The translations under genes and the position numbers were made by a program. Of a stretch of 20,105 nucleotides of DNA, positions 5,384 to 20,105 are shown one piece after another (position 1 is the first letter of the stretch; the number at the start of each line of letters is the position of its first letter). Under the pieces are notes generated by a model. That model was not told the origin of the DNA and made no database searches. It saw only the letters and a program-made list of their open reading frames with translations. This stretch comes from a virus, in the IMG/VR virus record IMGVR_UViG_3300008517_000015, positions 1 to 20,105 of that record; one strand, 5' to 3'.

Positions 5384-7354
5384 TCAATCAGTCACATTGG
5401 CGAATATTTTGTGATCTCGCACTCCCCTGTTTATGAAATCTACAATCTTCTCACCATCGAGATAGATATGATTATGAATTATGCTTTCTGGTCCTGCCTT
5501 GTTCGGACTGGAGACGGGCGTAACGTCCACCCGCTCACGCCCTCCTGGGTTATCTCCTACCATGATGAGCTCGGGGCCATGCGTCTCGAAAGAGCCGCCA
5601 CCTGCCAGGCCCTTAACATAGCCTGCTGCGATAGCTGCAACCGCAGACGCTGCAAGAGCGGCAAATCCTATAGCTGGTCTAAGCGTTGCAAACATCCAAG
5701 CGGCCTGAGCAATCAACTGCTTTGACAAAGTCATCAAAATAGTATGGCCCGTGTCTTTGAAAACTTCCTTTAGCTGTTCCCATCCTTCTTCGGCATCATG
5801 GATCATCGTACCCCATGCCTCAAAACCGGCTGTATAGGCATCTACTAATTCACCCGCCAAGAAATCCGCCCAATCGCGTCCTGACATCAGCATATCTTCA
5901 AAAGAAGCTTTAAGATCAAACTGTTTACTCGCGAGCTCATCCACTAAATCACTTTGCCGTTCATATTCGTCACTCATTTCGCGTGCCAGGTCGAGATTGA
6001 CATTTCCCACGTCGAGCAGATCGTAATAGTCCTTCGTCATGTCCTCTAGTTCCGTATCTAATTCAACTACACTGTCCTTTGTTTCTTTAAATCCCTCCAG
6101 TTGTGTCTGTAGATAATCCAGTGCCGCTTCCTTCATTTCAAGAAACGTTTCATTCGTTCCCTCTATTGCTTCGACCCGGGCGATGGTAGCAAGAAGCAGA
6201 TCCTTTTCGGCTTGCTCGGTTTTGTCGTATATCTCTTTTACAATTTCGAAATTGCTTTTCTCCTTTGCCATTCGATCCGCTTCAGCTTTATCTCCTTCGG
6301 CTTTTGCCGTTGCCATAGCTTTCTCTACCCTTATCACCTGTTCCAGCCATTCAATTTCTTCTTCTAGAGCAACGATACCGTCTTTGATCTGCGCTTCCCT
6401 TTGTGCCTCGACTCCCGTAACTCCTGCAACGGCCGCCTCGACGTCCTGCTGGGCGAGGGTCAGTGTACCTAGTAAACCCTTCTGCGTTTCCAACTGTTTC
6501 AAAAGGGCTTCTCTTGCCGTGTTCAGCTCATCAAGATCGCTTTTCTCGCCTTCGGCTATTTTCCCGAGGAGCTCAAAGGCTTCGTTCAAATCATTCATTT
6601 CGTTGACGCTGTCCGTTATTTTTTGAGTAACTAGCGTCAACCACTTGGTAACCGGCTTCATGCCTTCGGCTATACTTTCTCCAGCCGCCTCTTGCAAATC
6701 GCCAAACGCATTAGTCAACTGCTTCATGCTGCCAAGAGATGTTTCGGCAAGCGTTTTGCTCATTCCGCCGAATTTTTCATCCAGCGCTTCTGCAAGTTCG
6801 ACTAATTTTTCCTCTTTTGGAGCTGTTGCATCGATCACCACGCCATAACGAGAGAGGGCGTTCGTTGTGCTTCCGAGCGTTTTACCGACCAGACTGGCTG
6901 CCGTCTCTAAATCAACACCCATCGCAGAGGCAAAATCTTGCACTAAAGGCATTATTTTTACCAATCCCTCTTCGCTCAAATCACCCAACTGCTGCAACAT
7001 AGCCAGGGCGGAGAGCGTAGCTTCGTCGCCGTAAGTAGTCACGCCTTGCAACTCGCTGGCGAGATCTTGCAGCAACCTTGCAGAGACCTCACCTTCTTTG
7101 CCGGTTGCCCTGATTGCTGCTTCTAGTTTGGCCTCCGCCATTTCTTGTTCTTGATACGCCCGGATACAGTCCTGGACACCTCGATGTATGGCATACATAC
7201 CGGCAACCACTGCGCCTATGGCGACGGCATGATCCTTGAGAAACTTCTTGCCCTTGTTGATCTGTTTGTGTAAGCCGTTAAGACCTTGCTCAGATGTCTT
7301 TGCGGCCTTCGAGACTGTTTCTTGCCCTTCTATTCGGACCGTGGCTTTAGCCAT
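5384..7354 (-). CDS. Tape measure protein
   Basis: This 656-residue protein sets tail length and is ejected ahead of DNA. The evidence is a long alpha-helical, Ala/Glu/Lys/Leu-rich sequence with extended coiled-coil regions (about 290-500), a hydrophobic segment near 38-56 (FLKDHAVAIGAVVAGMYAI), and a second near 555-590 (FAALAASAVAAIAAGYVKGL) followed by GGGSFETHGPELIMVGDNPG, a C-terminal motif often seen in tape measures. At roughly 1.5 angstrom per residue (general rule for the family) the tail would be about 100 nm. The ATG overlaps the stop of the frameshifted chaperone extension by 8 bases (ATGGCTAA), and AAGGGA lies 10 bases upstream. It is preceded by the chaperone and followed by the Dit-like gene. 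Confidence 0.93.
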   Translation of the reverse strand: MAKATVRIEGQETVSKAAKTSEQGLNGLHKQINKGKKFLKDHAVAIGAVVAGMYAIHRGVQDCIRAYQEQEMAEAKLEAAIRATGKEGEVSARLLQDLASELQGVTTYGDEATLSALAMLQQLGDLSEEGLVKIMPLVQDFASAMGVDLETAASLVGKTLGSTTNALSRYGVVIDATAPKEEKLVELAEALDEKFGGMSKTLAETSLGSMKQLTNAFGDLQEAAGESIAEGMKPVTKWLTLVTQKITDSVNEMNDLNEAFELLGKIAEGEKSDLDELNTAREALLKQLETQKGLLGTLTLAQQDVEAAVAGVTGVEAQREAQIKDGIVALEEEIEWLEQVIRVEKAMATAKAEGDKAEADRMAKEKSNFEIVKEIYDKTEQAEKDLLLATIARVEAIEGTNETFLEMKEAALDYLQTQLEGFKETKDSVVELDTELEDMTKDYYDLLDVGNVNLDLAREMSDEYERQSDLVDELASKQFDLKASFEDMLMSGRDWADFLAGELVDAYTAGFEAWGTMIHDAEEGWEQLKEVFKDTGHTILMTLSKQLIAQAAWMFATLRPAIGFAALAASAVAAIAAGYVKGLAGGGSFETHGPELIMVGDNPGGRERVDVTPVSSPNKAGPESIIHNHIYLDGEKIVDFINRGVRDHKIFANVTD

Positions 7355-7640
7355 GTGATGGTTTTCCCTTTAGCACCTGCATGTATCTATTGCGGATAAT
7401 GCCGTAGATCTCCAGGTCTATCGCCGGCTGATCATTAAGAGCAAGATCGTATTTGAATCGCCTGAATCCACATCTCTCATCCAACATATATCTAACGCAC
7501 TCCCTCGCCCACGGACCCCACCGTCCGATTAGCTCGTATGGATTCGAGCCGTCCGGATAGTCTTCCGTCTCTTCATCAAAGCTCTCTCCCTTTACAATCC
7601 ATTCTGTGACGTCTCGAATGTCCCGGACGTCCTCGATGCT
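7347..7640 (-). CDS. Tail assembly chaperone extension made by -1 frameshift (T-like domain of a G-T type fusion)
   Basis: In the -1 frame relative to the chaperone gene there is a 97-codon open frame from AGC at 7640-7638 to TAA at 7349-7347. It begins SIEDVRDIRDVTEWIVKG, contains NPYELIGRWGPWARECVRYM, and ends RNRYMQVLKGKPSHG. In this frame a TAA stop lies 6 bases before the slippery heptamer, and the first ATG is deep inside, so the frame is reachable only by frameshift. The joined product would be 159 + 97 = 256 residues. In siphophages the long chaperone form binds the tape measure through the T-like part and recruits tube subunits. It overlaps the tape measure start by 8 bases. The open frame and slippery site are seen directly; the role is inferred from synteny. 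Confidence 0.85.
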   Translation of the reverse strand, partial: SIEDVRDIRDVTEWIVKGESFDEETEDYPDGSNPYELIGRWGPWARECVRYMLDERCGFRRFKYDLALNDQPAIDLEIYGIIRNRYMQVLKGKPSHG

Positions 7641-8116
7641 AAAGGGCGGTTATGCTCCTCAATCACATCGGACATCTCGAGCACAATATCCCGGGACTCG
7701 CATAGAGTCTTGACCAGCCCTTCGTCGATCTCGCACAGCTTTCCCTCGTCGTCCTTGAAATCGTGCTCACCTATTCCGTAGAGCAAGATGAGCTCATATA
7801 ATCGCGCCGTCTTTCTATTGCCGATTTCGCCGAGAGTCTCAAAAAAAGTTAACATCTCTTTTTCGCTCAGCTCGGCAGCGATCTGTTTTAATGTCAGGTT
7901 TTTGATTCCCTTTTTTTCGAGACGACCGAGTATCTTGAGAGCTTTAGGATTTTTGACGATCTTGCGAATTTCTGCCTGACAATTTGCGATTTCCTCCGCA
8001 CCCTGATAGCTGTACTTTCTCGGTCTGAACGAAAGACCGGGTAAAGCCGCAAGCTCGTGCTTCTCTCCCTGGATGCTTCGGCTAATCTTGTTTCTCAGAT
8101 CGTTGATTCCCGCCAT
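7592..8116 (-). CDS. Tail assembly chaperone (short, zero-frame form; G-like)
   Basis: The product is 174 residues, mostly alpha-helical, beginning MAGINDLRNKISRSIQG. It contains ELILLYGIGEHDFKDDEGK and ends in a low-complexity tail after the frameshift point at residue 159. Position between tail tube and tape measure, size, and the frameshift signal at its 3' end identify it as the gpG-type chaperone, a non-virion protein that keeps the tape measure soluble during tube assembly. The last 15 residues (ASRTSGTFETSQNGL) are read only when ribosomes do not shift. The start is well set: AGGAGG, fused with the TAG stop of the tube gene, sits 5 bases before the ATG. Confidence 0.87.
   Translation of the reverse strand: MAGINDLRNKISRSIQGEKHELAALPGLSFRPRKYSYQGAEEIANCQAEIRKIVKNPKALKILGRLEKKGIKNLTLKQIAAELSEKEMLTFFETLGEIGNRKTARLYELILLYGIGEHDFKDDEGKLCEIDEGLVKTLCESRDIVLEMSDVIEEHNRPLASRTSGTFETSQNGL
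7608..7631 (-). promoter_or_regulatory. Possible frameshift-stimulating stem-loop
   Basis: Two copies of GACGTC (7631-7626 and 7613-7608 on the minus strand) can pair to a 6 bp stem with a 12-base loop, starting 8 bases after the slippery heptamer. Each copy is self-complementary, so other pairings are possible. Confidence 0.45.
7640..7646 (-). promoter_or_regulatory. Slippery heptamer CCCTTTA for -1 ribosomal frameshift
   Basis: On the minus strand the zero-frame codons CCT TTA sit in C-CCT-TTA, a perfect X XXY YYZ heptamer. After a -1 slip both tRNAs re-pair on CCC and TTT. It lies near the 3' end of the chaperone frame and just after the opening stop of the -1 frame. Confidence 0.85.
7655..7660 (-). 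promoter_or_regulatory. Internal Shine-Dalgarno-like GAGGAG upstream of the slippery site
   Basis: GAGGAG ends 8 bases before CCCTTTA on the minus strand and has no start codon at useful distance. An internal Shine-Dalgarno element about 10 bases upstream is known to stimulate -1 frameshifting in E. coli dnaX, so it may act the same way here. Confidence 0.5.
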
Positions 8117-8121
8117 AGCGA

Positions 8122-8128
8122 CCTCCTA
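8122..8128 (-). promoter_or_regulatory. TAGGAGG: tube-gene stop codon fused to chaperone ribosome binding site
   Basis: The TAG stop of the tube gene is the first three bases of TAGGAGG, 5 bases before the chaperone ATG at 8116. A terminating ribosome would sit on the next initiation site, suggesting coupled translation. Confidence 0.6.
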
Positions 8129-10087
8129 ATAGGGGATGGAATCGGTAGTGACCAGAATCATCGTGACGGGATCGTTGTACAAAGTGCCTTTGGGATTCAG
8201 CGCCTTGTAGCTCATGTGTGCATCGATCACGCCCGCATTCTCGGGGAAGTCAAACAACGAAAGCACACAGTAGGGAAGCTCGACCAGCATTATCTCGGGA
8301 ATATTCGTCTCGATCTCTTTGCTTTTAAAATAGAATGACATCCCCGTCACCGTGCCATCGAACGATTTGACTCTCTGGGCATAAGTGGTGGCATCTAACC
8401 GAATGTTGAATTCGCCCTCCAGAGCGAATATCCCTTTCTGTTGATAAGCACGGTACATACTGGCGATCCCGTATCCATCGACCATGTGATTGTTGGCGAT
8501 GTTGACGGCGATGCTGCGCAGATAGTTATAGTCCGTCTCTTGCCAGGCGAAACCGCCTCCCTGGAATCGCATAGGATCTACGTCCTCGAGCGGCAAAGCT
8601 GAAAGCACCTGCCCGGTTGTCTCCTCAAAACCGATGAGCTCGACGTTTCCATCTGCAAAGCCCTTGAGAGCGGCACTGAGGGAAAGGTTGTTTGCTACGC
8701 AAGCGCTATAAAGAAAATTGTCGTGAAACCCGTCCTTCTGTATGGAATACACGGGCCTCTCGGCATCCGAAAGATCGCTCGTGAACACATGAGCGTATGC
8801 CGTGCTAGTATTGCCGACAAAGAGGATATAAGCCCATACATTCTTGCCCTGTTTCGCCGTGCTGGTGTAGGCAATGCCGAAAGTGTCATGACCGCTCGTA
8901 ACGACTATGGCGTCTCTTCCGGGGTTTGCTGCGACGAGTGTTATCACCGCGCCCGCATTCGAGGCGGTTACTCCCGGCACTCCGTAGGTCGGATCGTTGA
9001 TGCAGGTAACCAGCTCTCCGGCATCCGCCGTATCATCACCAGATATATCGAATTCCCGGTTTGCAGGCGTAGTCGTATCGACATGGGCGGTAAAGGTCAG
9101 TCCGTTGATGGTTATCGTCTCGTCGGCGAGAACCGTAGCTAGGGTTACAGTCATCTCTTCGATGTACATGAATACAACGATATTCTGGGTGTCCTGGGTG
9201 CCCGCACCGAAGAGTATCTCCGCTTCGTATCCGGTGTCAGCGGCGATCAGAGCTATAAGCTCGGCCATCGTATCGTTGGCGCCATCAGTAAGGTCATAAG
9301 ATCCCGCTACGCCGAAGTTGGCGGCATCAATCACCTCGGCGCCCTTGGCGCCTACGTAAGAATCAAGTGTAATGGCGGTTCCTGCGATGCCATCGACAGC
9401 CGCTTCGAAAGCTACAAAATCCGTAAGGGCGGCAAAAAGATCAGGACCTGTAACACCTGCAGCCAGAACTATTGTCGAACTCGCAGCCTCGCTTTGAGAG
9501 GTGCAACGCAGATCTCCGGCTACCAGGGAAAAGTAAGCGCCCGATTCGTTCATGGCCTCGTTCATCAATCGAATGATCACATCGTATGTCAGCACTGTTC
9601 CTGTCGTGATGTCATACTCGACCGCAGCTCCGCCGTCGACTGTCACTTTGAAATAATACTGCGTGGTGGCAGCCAGTCCGGTCGCCGTGGAAAGCGTTTT
9701 GCCGGTGAGATCGCATTCCTGAAAGCCATGAGTCCTATCGCTTGCAGCGACGAGCTTGCAGCTTGCAGATACTCCGGTATATCTCACCCGCATGATTCCA
9801 CCGATTCTTGTCGGTATGTCCTCCCTTCCCAAAAGACTTTTGAGAAGCGCGGCAAAGCCACCGCAAGGACGCGGAGAGAGTGGTATCGGGCCTCCGATAT
9901 CGAATGCGAGAGGATATTCCCCCGCAAGCATGTTGGATCCCACGACCGCAGGATCCTCTCCTCGCTCGACCTTTTTGTCCAAGCCCCCTAAAGCGGTAAC
10001 GGGTATCACGAATTTTCTCGCTTCCTCCGTCCCGGGAGTAAACTCCGGTCGGCTTATCGTATACTTAATGTTTTTTGATGAAGGCAT
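8126..10087 (-). CDS. Major tail tube protein with large nested insertion
   Basis: The product is 653 residues. The N-terminal part (to ~92) and the C-terminal part (from ~425) read as one tail tube protein: EYPLAFDIGGPIPLSPRPCG followed by GFAALLKSLLG, and later SIAVNIANNHMVDGYGIASM and KGIFALEGEFNIRL. Position directly before the chaperone supports this. Residues ~95-423 are an insertion, with GGIMRVRYTGVSASC at 96-110, a domain with LSTATGLAATTQYYFKVTV at 132-150, GAEVIDAANFGVAGSYDL at 249-266, a second domain with ADETITINGLTFTAHVD at 321-337, and KNVWAYILF at 415-423. The first, third and last pieces match the N-terminus of the connector 10967-11884. The insertion probably decorates the tube surface. 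AGGAGG lies 8 bases before the ATG. A sheath protein was considered and is less likely. Confidence 0.85.
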   Translation of the reverse strand: MPSSKNIKYTISRPEFTPGTEEARKFVIPVTALGGLDKKVERGEDPAVVGSNMLAGEYPLAFDIGGPIPLSPRPCGGFAALLKSLLGREDIPTRIGGIMRVRYTGVSASCKLVAASDRTHGFQECDLTGKTLSTATGLAATTQYYFKVTVDGGAAVEYDITTGTVLTYDVIIRLMNEAMNESGAYFSLVAGDLRCTSQSEAASSTIVLAAGVTGPDLFAALTDFVAFEAAVDGIAGTAITLDSYVGAKGAEVIDAANFGVAGSYDLTDGANDTMAELIALIAADTGYEAEILFGAGTQDTQNIVVFMYIEEMTVTLATVLADETITINGLTFTAHVDTTTPANREFDISGDDTADAGELVTCINDPTYGVPGVTASNAGAVITLVAANPGRDAIVVTSGHDTFGIAYTSTAKQGKNVWAYILFVGNTSTAYAHVFTSDLSDAERPVYSIQKDGFHDNFLYSACVANNLSLSAALKGFADGNVELIGFEETTGQVLSALPLEDVDPMRFQGGGFAWQETDYNYLRSIAVNIANNHMVDGYGIASMYRAYQQKGIFALEGEFNIRLDATTYAQRVKSFDGTVTGMSFYFKSKEIETNIPEIMLVELPYCVLSLFDFPENAGVIDAHMSYKALNPKGTLYNDPVTMILVTTDSIPY

Positions 10088-12060: not shown

Positions 12061-12381
12061 TTACGGCATCGCGGACCAGATGACTTCGAGACCGTAGGTC
12101 TTCGTGCCGGCGTTAGCCCAGGCAATCGCGAGCCCGTCTCCCGCTACAAAGTTATGGGGTCTTACCGGCTGCCAGACCAGATCTATGACCAGGGTCATAT
12201 CCTGAGTCAGAAACACCGCATCATAGTCCGCGCCGGTCAGGGCATCGAGGCTGATGGTAAGATCGCCCGCGCCGCCCGCTGCGCTGAGATGAATACGCAC
12301 TTCCTCGACCTGAAAAGCAACGCCGGGGATAAGAGAAAAGGCAATAGCTGCGGCTCCGGTTGCTCTACTAACTCGTCTCAT
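12061..12381 (-). CDS. Structural-type protein, tandem paralogue A (106 aa)
   Basis: The product is 106 residues starting MRRVSRATGAAAIAF. It aligns along its whole length with the neighbour 12395-12721: both have QVEE(V/M)RIHL near 24-32, ISLDAL near 43-48, VFLTQDM near 55-61, RPH(N/S)F(V/I)AGD near 74-82, and G(L/I)EV(I/V)WS at the end. The sequence is beta-rich without membrane spans. The ATG is preceded by GAGGAG 9 bases upstream, inside the end of paralogue B. Its place between the capsid and connector genes suggests a head decoration, spike or vertex protein. No catalytic motif is visible and the function is unknown. Confidence 0.8.
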   Translation of the reverse strand: MRRVSRATGAAAIAFSLIPGVAFQVEEVRIHLSAAGGAGDLTISLDALTGADYDAVFLTQDMTLVIDLVWQPVRPHNFVAGDGLAIAWANAGTKTYGLEVIWSAMP

Positions 12382-12394
12382 TTTTCATCACTCC

Positions 12395-12721
12395 TCATGG
12401 TATCCCGGACCAGACGACCTCGATGCCGAATGTTTTGTCATTCACATTGGCAAAATCAACCTTGAATATATCTCCGGCTATGAAAGAATGCGGTCTCGTA
12501 GGCAGCCAGCTCAGATCTGCGACGGCCGCCATGTCCTGCGTCAGAAATACCACGTCGTATACCGGACCCCCCAAAGCATCAAGACTGATTATGAGATTGC
12601 CTGCGCCCACACCGCCCACAGCATCCAGATGGATGCGCATCTCTTCGACCTGGTATGGGATAGTCGGAGAAAGCGCAATAGCCACCGCACCGTCGCCGGT
12701 CGCTCTTTCAAACCGTCTCAT
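12395..12721 (-). CDS. Structural-type protein, tandem paralogue B (108 aa)
   Basis: The product is 108 residues starting MRRFERATGDGAVAI. It is the second member of the duplicated pair with 12061-12381, sharing RIHL, ISLDAL, VFLTQDM, RPHSFIAGD and GIEVVWS blocks in the same order, with a two-residue longer loop after the AVGGVG stretch. Only 3 bases separate it from the upstream gene's stop. GAGG lies 11 bases before the ATG, a weak site, so coupling to the gene upstream is likely. Tandem related genes after the capsid gene could make a hetero-oligomeric decoration or spike. This is inference; I do not know a characterised member. Confidence 0.8.
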   Translation of the reverse strand: MRRFERATGDGAVAIALSPTIPYQVEEMRIHLDAVGGVGAGNLIISLDALGGPVYDVVFLTQDMAAVADLSWLPTRPHSFIAGDIFKVDFANVNDKTFGIEVVWSGIP

Positions 12722-20028: not shown

Positions 20029-20105
20029 CTGTCTCTTATACACATCTCCGAGCCCACGAGACTAGGCATGATCTCGTATGCCGTCTTCTGCTTGAAAAAA
20101 AAAAA
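20029..20105. other. Illumina Nextera adapter, index and poly-A (sequencing artefact)
   Basis: CTGTCTCTTATACACATCT (20029-20047) is the Tn5 mosaic end. CCGAGCCCACGAGAC (20048-20062), an 8-base index TAGGCATG (20063-20070), and ATCTCGTATGCCGTCTTC plus TGCTTG (20071-20094) complete the Nextera i7 read-through, followed by 11 A bases. The index equals Nextera N706 as I recall it. Reverse translation of this stretch gives the false N-terminus MPSLVGSEMCIRDR. It is not phage DNA. Confidence 0.98.

Follow-up and report, generated by a model that had tools for sequence, protein, structure and literature searches.

The window, a 20,105-nt stretch of DNA from an uncultured bacterial virus corresponding to positions 1 to 20,105 of IMG/VR record IMGVR_UViG_3300008517_000015, almost certainly carries a tail assembly chaperone gene of the lambda G/G-T type, in which a predicted -1 ribosomal frameshift at C CCU UUA joins the chaperone to a 97-codon extension; the shift itself is inferred from sequence comparison and structure models. 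Frameshift-type control of phage tail chaperones is already known, and the main addition is an orphan chaperone-extension pair: neither half has a Pfam or PHROG profile, and with the pair the G/G-T frameshift class gains a tail chaperone family that is an orphan by sequence. The genes are ordered tube, chaperone, extension and tape measure, with two overlapping ORFs lying between the tube and tape measure genes. The features concerned are the following.

8126..10087, minus strand: tail tube protein, upstream neighbour of the chaperone (Pfam PF18906 Phage_tube_2, E 5e-10)
7592..8116, minus strand: predicted chaperone ORF, 0-frame product (lambda gpG-like), 174 aa
7655..7660, minus strand: GAGGAG, Shine-Dalgarno-like candidate stimulator, ending 8 nt before the heptamer
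7650..7652, minus strand: -1-frame TAA located 5' of the heptamer, which bounds the 5' end of the extension at the slip site
7640..7646, minus strand: predicted slippery heptamer C CCU UUA, in 0-frame phase (CG)C CCT TTA = X XXY YYZ
7347..7639, minus strand: -1-frame extension (lambda T-like domain), 97 codons plus stop
7608..7631, minus strand: candidate hairpin GACGTCCGG.....(T/C)CG.GACGTC, 9 bp with one bulge, beginning 8 nt after the heptamer
5384..7354, minus strand: tail length tape measure protein (PHROG 27166, E 2e-15)

The chaperone ORF and the ATG of the tape measure gene (7354) are separated by 237 nt; this apparent gap is coding sequence that gene callers would miss. The -1 frame is open from the TAA at 7652-7650 to a TAA at 7349-7347 and overlaps the tape measure gene by 8 nt. 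The first codon of the extension, AGC, begins at 7640, the last base of the heptamer, and tandem slippage would yield a product of 159 chaperone residues plus 97, or 256 aa. The coordinates, phases and distances that the sequence-only reading gave for the chaperone stop, the heptamer, the TAA, GAGGAG, the two GACGTC arms, the overlap and the 256-residue product were all correct on the minus strand.

Relatives were recovered from IMG/VR in two ways. A search with the -1-frame peptide returned 16 distinct contigs, the window included, as well as L001, nearly a copy of the window, from which it differs by 1 mismatch in 6297 nt. A search with the chaperone only, in which the extension was not used, added two more distinct contigs (L056, which equals L057, and L058), bringing the total to 18 distinct contigs from different metagenomes. 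The chaperones of the 16 aligned contigs share about 24-35% identity with that of the window. A tblastn search against 50,697 phage records found no relatives, nor did a first scan of genome contigs; a second scan found two spirochaete genome bins (L035 and L036), which carry versions of L005. Bin L036 contains an N-run within the extension and was excluded from most counts.

The heptamer is strongly conserved in this family as the site of the predicted programmed frameshift. Each of the 18 distinct contigs, among them both of those recovered through the chaperone only, has CCCTTT[A/G/C] in phase at the corresponding place. Given the 0-frame amino acids and the codon usage of each contig, the chance of a C CCT TTN is 0.004-0.05 per contig, and every member carries one; the log10 of the joint product is about -33 for 17 sequences, of which two are near-identical and whose shared descent is ignored. 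The first base of the heptamer, a wobble position, is C in 16/16 contigs versus 4.4 expected (p 1e-10), and the codon that holds it varies between Arg, Ala, Asp, Leu and Pro; base 7 is variable, as expected for Z. The motif is kept even in contigs whose GC content is 60-66% and which use CCT and TTR as minority codons, and in most members it is the sole XXXYYYN in 0-frame phase across the whole chaperone frame. L002 has a -1-frame stop (TGA) directly against the heptamer (0 nt upstream), and L014 has its 0-frame stop (TGA) immediately after it, so that the shift point can only be the heptamer itself; close upstream -1-frame stops are also present in L010 and L018 (3 nt) and in L032 (9 nt). None of the 18 contigs has an early -1-frame stop past the heptamer or a broken heptamer. 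Together with the open -1 frame, these observations bear out the proposal of a programmed frameshift at CCCTTTA. The heptamer had also been put forward as an addition to what is known, but as a motif it is not new: C_CCU_UUA/G/U/C has been measured as shift-prone in E. coli, where C_CCU_UUA and C_CCU_UUG give more than 0.10% shifting without stimulators and C_CCU_UUC is among the motifs with high-level shifting (PMC4066793).

Beyond the heptamer, the -1 frame stays open in 18/18 contigs and encodes a homologous domain some 90-130 residues long. In all contigs where this is checkable, no more than a few tens of bases separate the end of this domain from the beginning of a long downstream ORF. 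The extension of the window is some 34-44% identical at the amino acid level to those of 15 relatives, with no internal stops. Its first 16 residues align without gaps in 16 contigs (PFxxxDVxxIRDVTEW), the most conserved segment being IRDVTEW at codons 10-16, and 12 residues are invariant among the first nine divergent contigs. Past the 0-frame stop, the -1 frame is under purifying selection, with a dN of 0.11 versus a dS of about 4 (saturated) for the pair L016/L017 and a dN of 0.16 versus a dS of 0.93 for L014/L031. The extension is modelled as a compact three-helix domain with a pLDDT of 93. Homology, dN far below dS and the confident model all agree with the sequence-only reading that the 97-codon extension is real. 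Sequence-profile searches of Pfam, PHROGs and PDB gave no match to a known T domain, and fold searches with the extension alone returned weak matches only, which do not imply a new fold.

Two explanations would dispense with a frameshift, and both are highly improbable. According to one, the chaperone and the extension form a single continuous gene that was broken by a sequencing or assembly indel, a concern that is natural for a metagenomic contig with untrimmed adapter at one end. The relatives refute it, since the same frame relation recurs at the same heptamer in the 18 distinct contigs from different metagenomes and in the two spirochaete bins, and we regard its probability as vanishingly small. 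Scarcely more probable is a separate gene with its own start, translated by reinitiation or coupling near the chaperone stop: coupling of neighbouring phage genes is common and the -1 frame does extend past the chaperone stop, but in 16 of 17 sequences the -1 frame has no ATG, GTG or TTG before codon 17 (before codon 54 in the window), which places the first possible start after the IRDVTEW segment. Under such an arrangement there would also be no reason for the heptamer's wobble conservation. The -1 frameshift is therefore preferred to either.

The 0-frame product is, on the evidence of its modelled fold, a tail assembly chaperone. Its AlphaFold model (pLDDT 84) matches the HK97 tail assembly chaperone 2ob9 with a Z of 8.4 and an rmsd of 3.8 over 105/107 residues, all other chains scoring 4.4 or less, and its Foldseek matches include several viral models that bear the name tail assembly chaperone. 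The predicted fold resembles that of 2ob9 at only 5% sequence identity, and the HK97 protein has 107 residues versus 174 for the window chaperone. Searches of Pfam, PHROG and PDB sequence profiles with the chaperone returned nothing useful. The chaperone identity proposed from the letters of the window is thus upheld by the HK97 fold match and by the tube and tape measure neighbours. The last 15 or so residues, which lie after the shift site, have a pLDDT of 52-56 and are probably disordered in this model, as is expected of a tail that merely terminates the short form.

The -1 frameshift signal of E. coli dnaX comprises a Shine-Dalgarno-like element, a heptamer and a hairpin, and its shift truncates the protein. 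The window has an SD-like hexamer, a heptamer and a hairpin in matching order, and the sequence-only reading had proposed the full dnaX-like set; within the family only the heptamer is strictly conserved, and the shift would extend the protein rather than truncate it. The literal GAGGAG is found at the matching place in the window only and in no relative, and an SD-like core (GGAG, GAGG or AGGAG) is present in 7/16 contigs. What remains of this part of the proposal is a weaker G-rich tendency: the wobble positions at -9, -12 and -15 are G in 14/16 (6.1 expected, p 4e-5), 13/16 (8.9 expected, p 0.02) and 7/16 contigs (3.0 expected, p 0.014), respectively, in tests that tried several neighbouring positions on related sequences. 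The energy of the duplex with the anti-Shine-Dalgarno sequence has a mean z of -1.0 versus synonymous recoding. A G-rich SD-like tendency upstream of the heptamer is thus probable from the aligned sequences, and several members (L002, L007, L008, L032) show it weakly or not at all.

Downstream, the hairpin region of the window (48 nt) folds at -12.8 kcal/mol, with a z of -1.0 versus synonymous recoding. For the 48 nt counted from the last base of the heptamer, folding exceeds that of synonymous recodings with a mean z of -0.94 and a Stouffer value of -3.9 over 17 non-independent sequences; the excess is strong in L007 and L008. The 6-bp GACGTC stem, whose arms lie at 7631-7626 and 7613-7608 in the window, is intact in about half of the relatives. 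Its alignment has 67% of cells paired and displays no covariation beyond that of shuffles (41-140 of 500 shuffles reach the observed values), and RNAalifold found no consensus structure or shared longer stem in the 120 nt from the heptamer. Both arms encode a conserved DV..RDV peptide, which by itself favours the GACGTC repeat, so that the hairpin is partly explained by coding. It is unlikely that the three parts form a dnaX-type functional unit throughout the family, with all of them required. The presence of all three in the window, the wobble-G selection and the combined folding excess count in favour of such a unit; against it, a core of the kind searched for is missing from L002, L003, L005, L007, L008 and L032, excess folding is absent from L018, L028 and L032, and covariation and a consensus fold are both wanting. 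Tests for an SD-like core, folding, covariation and a consensus fold revealed no stimulator conserved throughout the family, which therefore does not bear out the proposed full dnaX-like set: the heptamer stands, the hexamer gives way to a G-rich tendency, and the stem is intact in about half of the relatives and lacks covariation support.

In the lambda-type G/G-T class, the fusion is made at a low ratio, is required for tail assembly and is absent from the virion. Many long-tailed dsDNA phages have conserved counterparts of lambda gpG and gpG-T (Xu, Hendrix and Duda 2004, reviewed in PMC5009743). As in lambda, the window gene is located between the tail tube and tape measure genes, its predicted -1 shift lies near the end of the first ORF, its extension reaches the tape measure gene, and a low-abundance fusion is expected. 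It differs from lambda gpG/gpG-T in having no detected sequence similarity, in its family heptamer C_CCU_UUA/G/C, and in its extension, a conserved domain of its own (IRDVTEW...W..W) that matches nothing in Pfam or PHROG. The G/G-T analogues 17.5 and 17.5* of SPP1 likewise involve a putative -1 frameshift, at a heptamer, UUUUUUC, that is unlike that of the window (PMC6316719); a similar in-phase U-run occurs in L042, L048 and L051, distant relatives of the extension from spirochaete genomes. In the literature on phage tail frameshifts, within a scope that took in few subscription papers, the only case of CCCTTTA/CCCUUU was that of Escherichia phage 9g, whose slip motif in the tail chaperone genes G/T begins with CCCUUU as in the window, but which has 5'-CCCUUUUUUU and a -2 shift (PMC4276943).

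By the preferred -1 frameshift reading, most ribosomes would produce the 174-residue chaperone (G). A minority, whose P and A sites are occupied at C CCU UUA by tRNA-Pro and tRNA-Leu, respectively, would move one base back and re-pair on the heptamer (CCU to CCC, UUA to UUU), adding 97 residues to give a 256-residue G-T fusion that ends at the start of the tape measure gene. By analogy with lambda, abundant G and rare G-T would both bind the tape measure, G would coat the tape measure protein (PMC5009743), and the T domain would recruit tail tube subunits, these binding partners being presumed. The G-rich upstream element, and in some members the hairpin, would raise the rate of shifting. The 18 contigs are natural variants that share a fixed heptamer and differ in the SD-like element, the hairpin and the distance to the 0-frame stop; they provide a series for testing what determines the shift ratio. 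Since the one heptamer C_CCU_UU[A/G/C] is kept across highly divergent phages while stimulators come and go, its tRNA-Pro/tRNA-Leu pair, rather than the hairpin, would set the ratio of G to G-T, and distant relatives would have swapped in a U-run at the matching place; we offer this as a tentative and somewhat doubtful possibility. If true, the U-run in distant relatives would show how slip sites get swapped.

These distant relatives came from a profile search of 393 spirochaete genomes, which gave weak, consistent matches to the extensions in other prophages (E about 1e-5 to 1e-7). In these prophages a -1-frame extension comes after a chaperone-like ORF and ends near a tape-measure-like gene, with a U-run in phase at the junction. 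The heptamer TTTTTTT is in phase in L042, L043, L044, L046, L048 and L051, whose extensions weakly match that of the window, and this prophage family seems to use the same system with another slip sequence. The comparison suggests that the slip sequence is exchangeable, homology at such a distance being tentative. A closer connection to these hosts is found in L005, a 40-kb viral contig: its tail module is nearly identical to that of the Spirochaetae bins L035 and L036, which makes it probable that one or more members of the family are phages or prophages of spirochaetes.

Several other characteristics of the window were recorded. The tail tube protein (8126-10087) is, with 653 aa, long for PF18906, whose match spans residues 425-577 only, and it may contain inserted domains. 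Between the capsid and connector genes, at 12061-12721, adjacent ORFs of 106 and 108 aa encode similar proteins, apparently as the result of a tandem duplication. The contig end at 20029-20105 carries an untrimmed Illumina adapter (a T run, CAAGCAGAAGACGGCATACGAGAT, an index and GTCTCGTGGGCTCGGAGATGTGTATAAGAGACAG), and the first residues (MPSLVGSEMCIRDR) of the terminase ORF called from 20069 are translated adapter.
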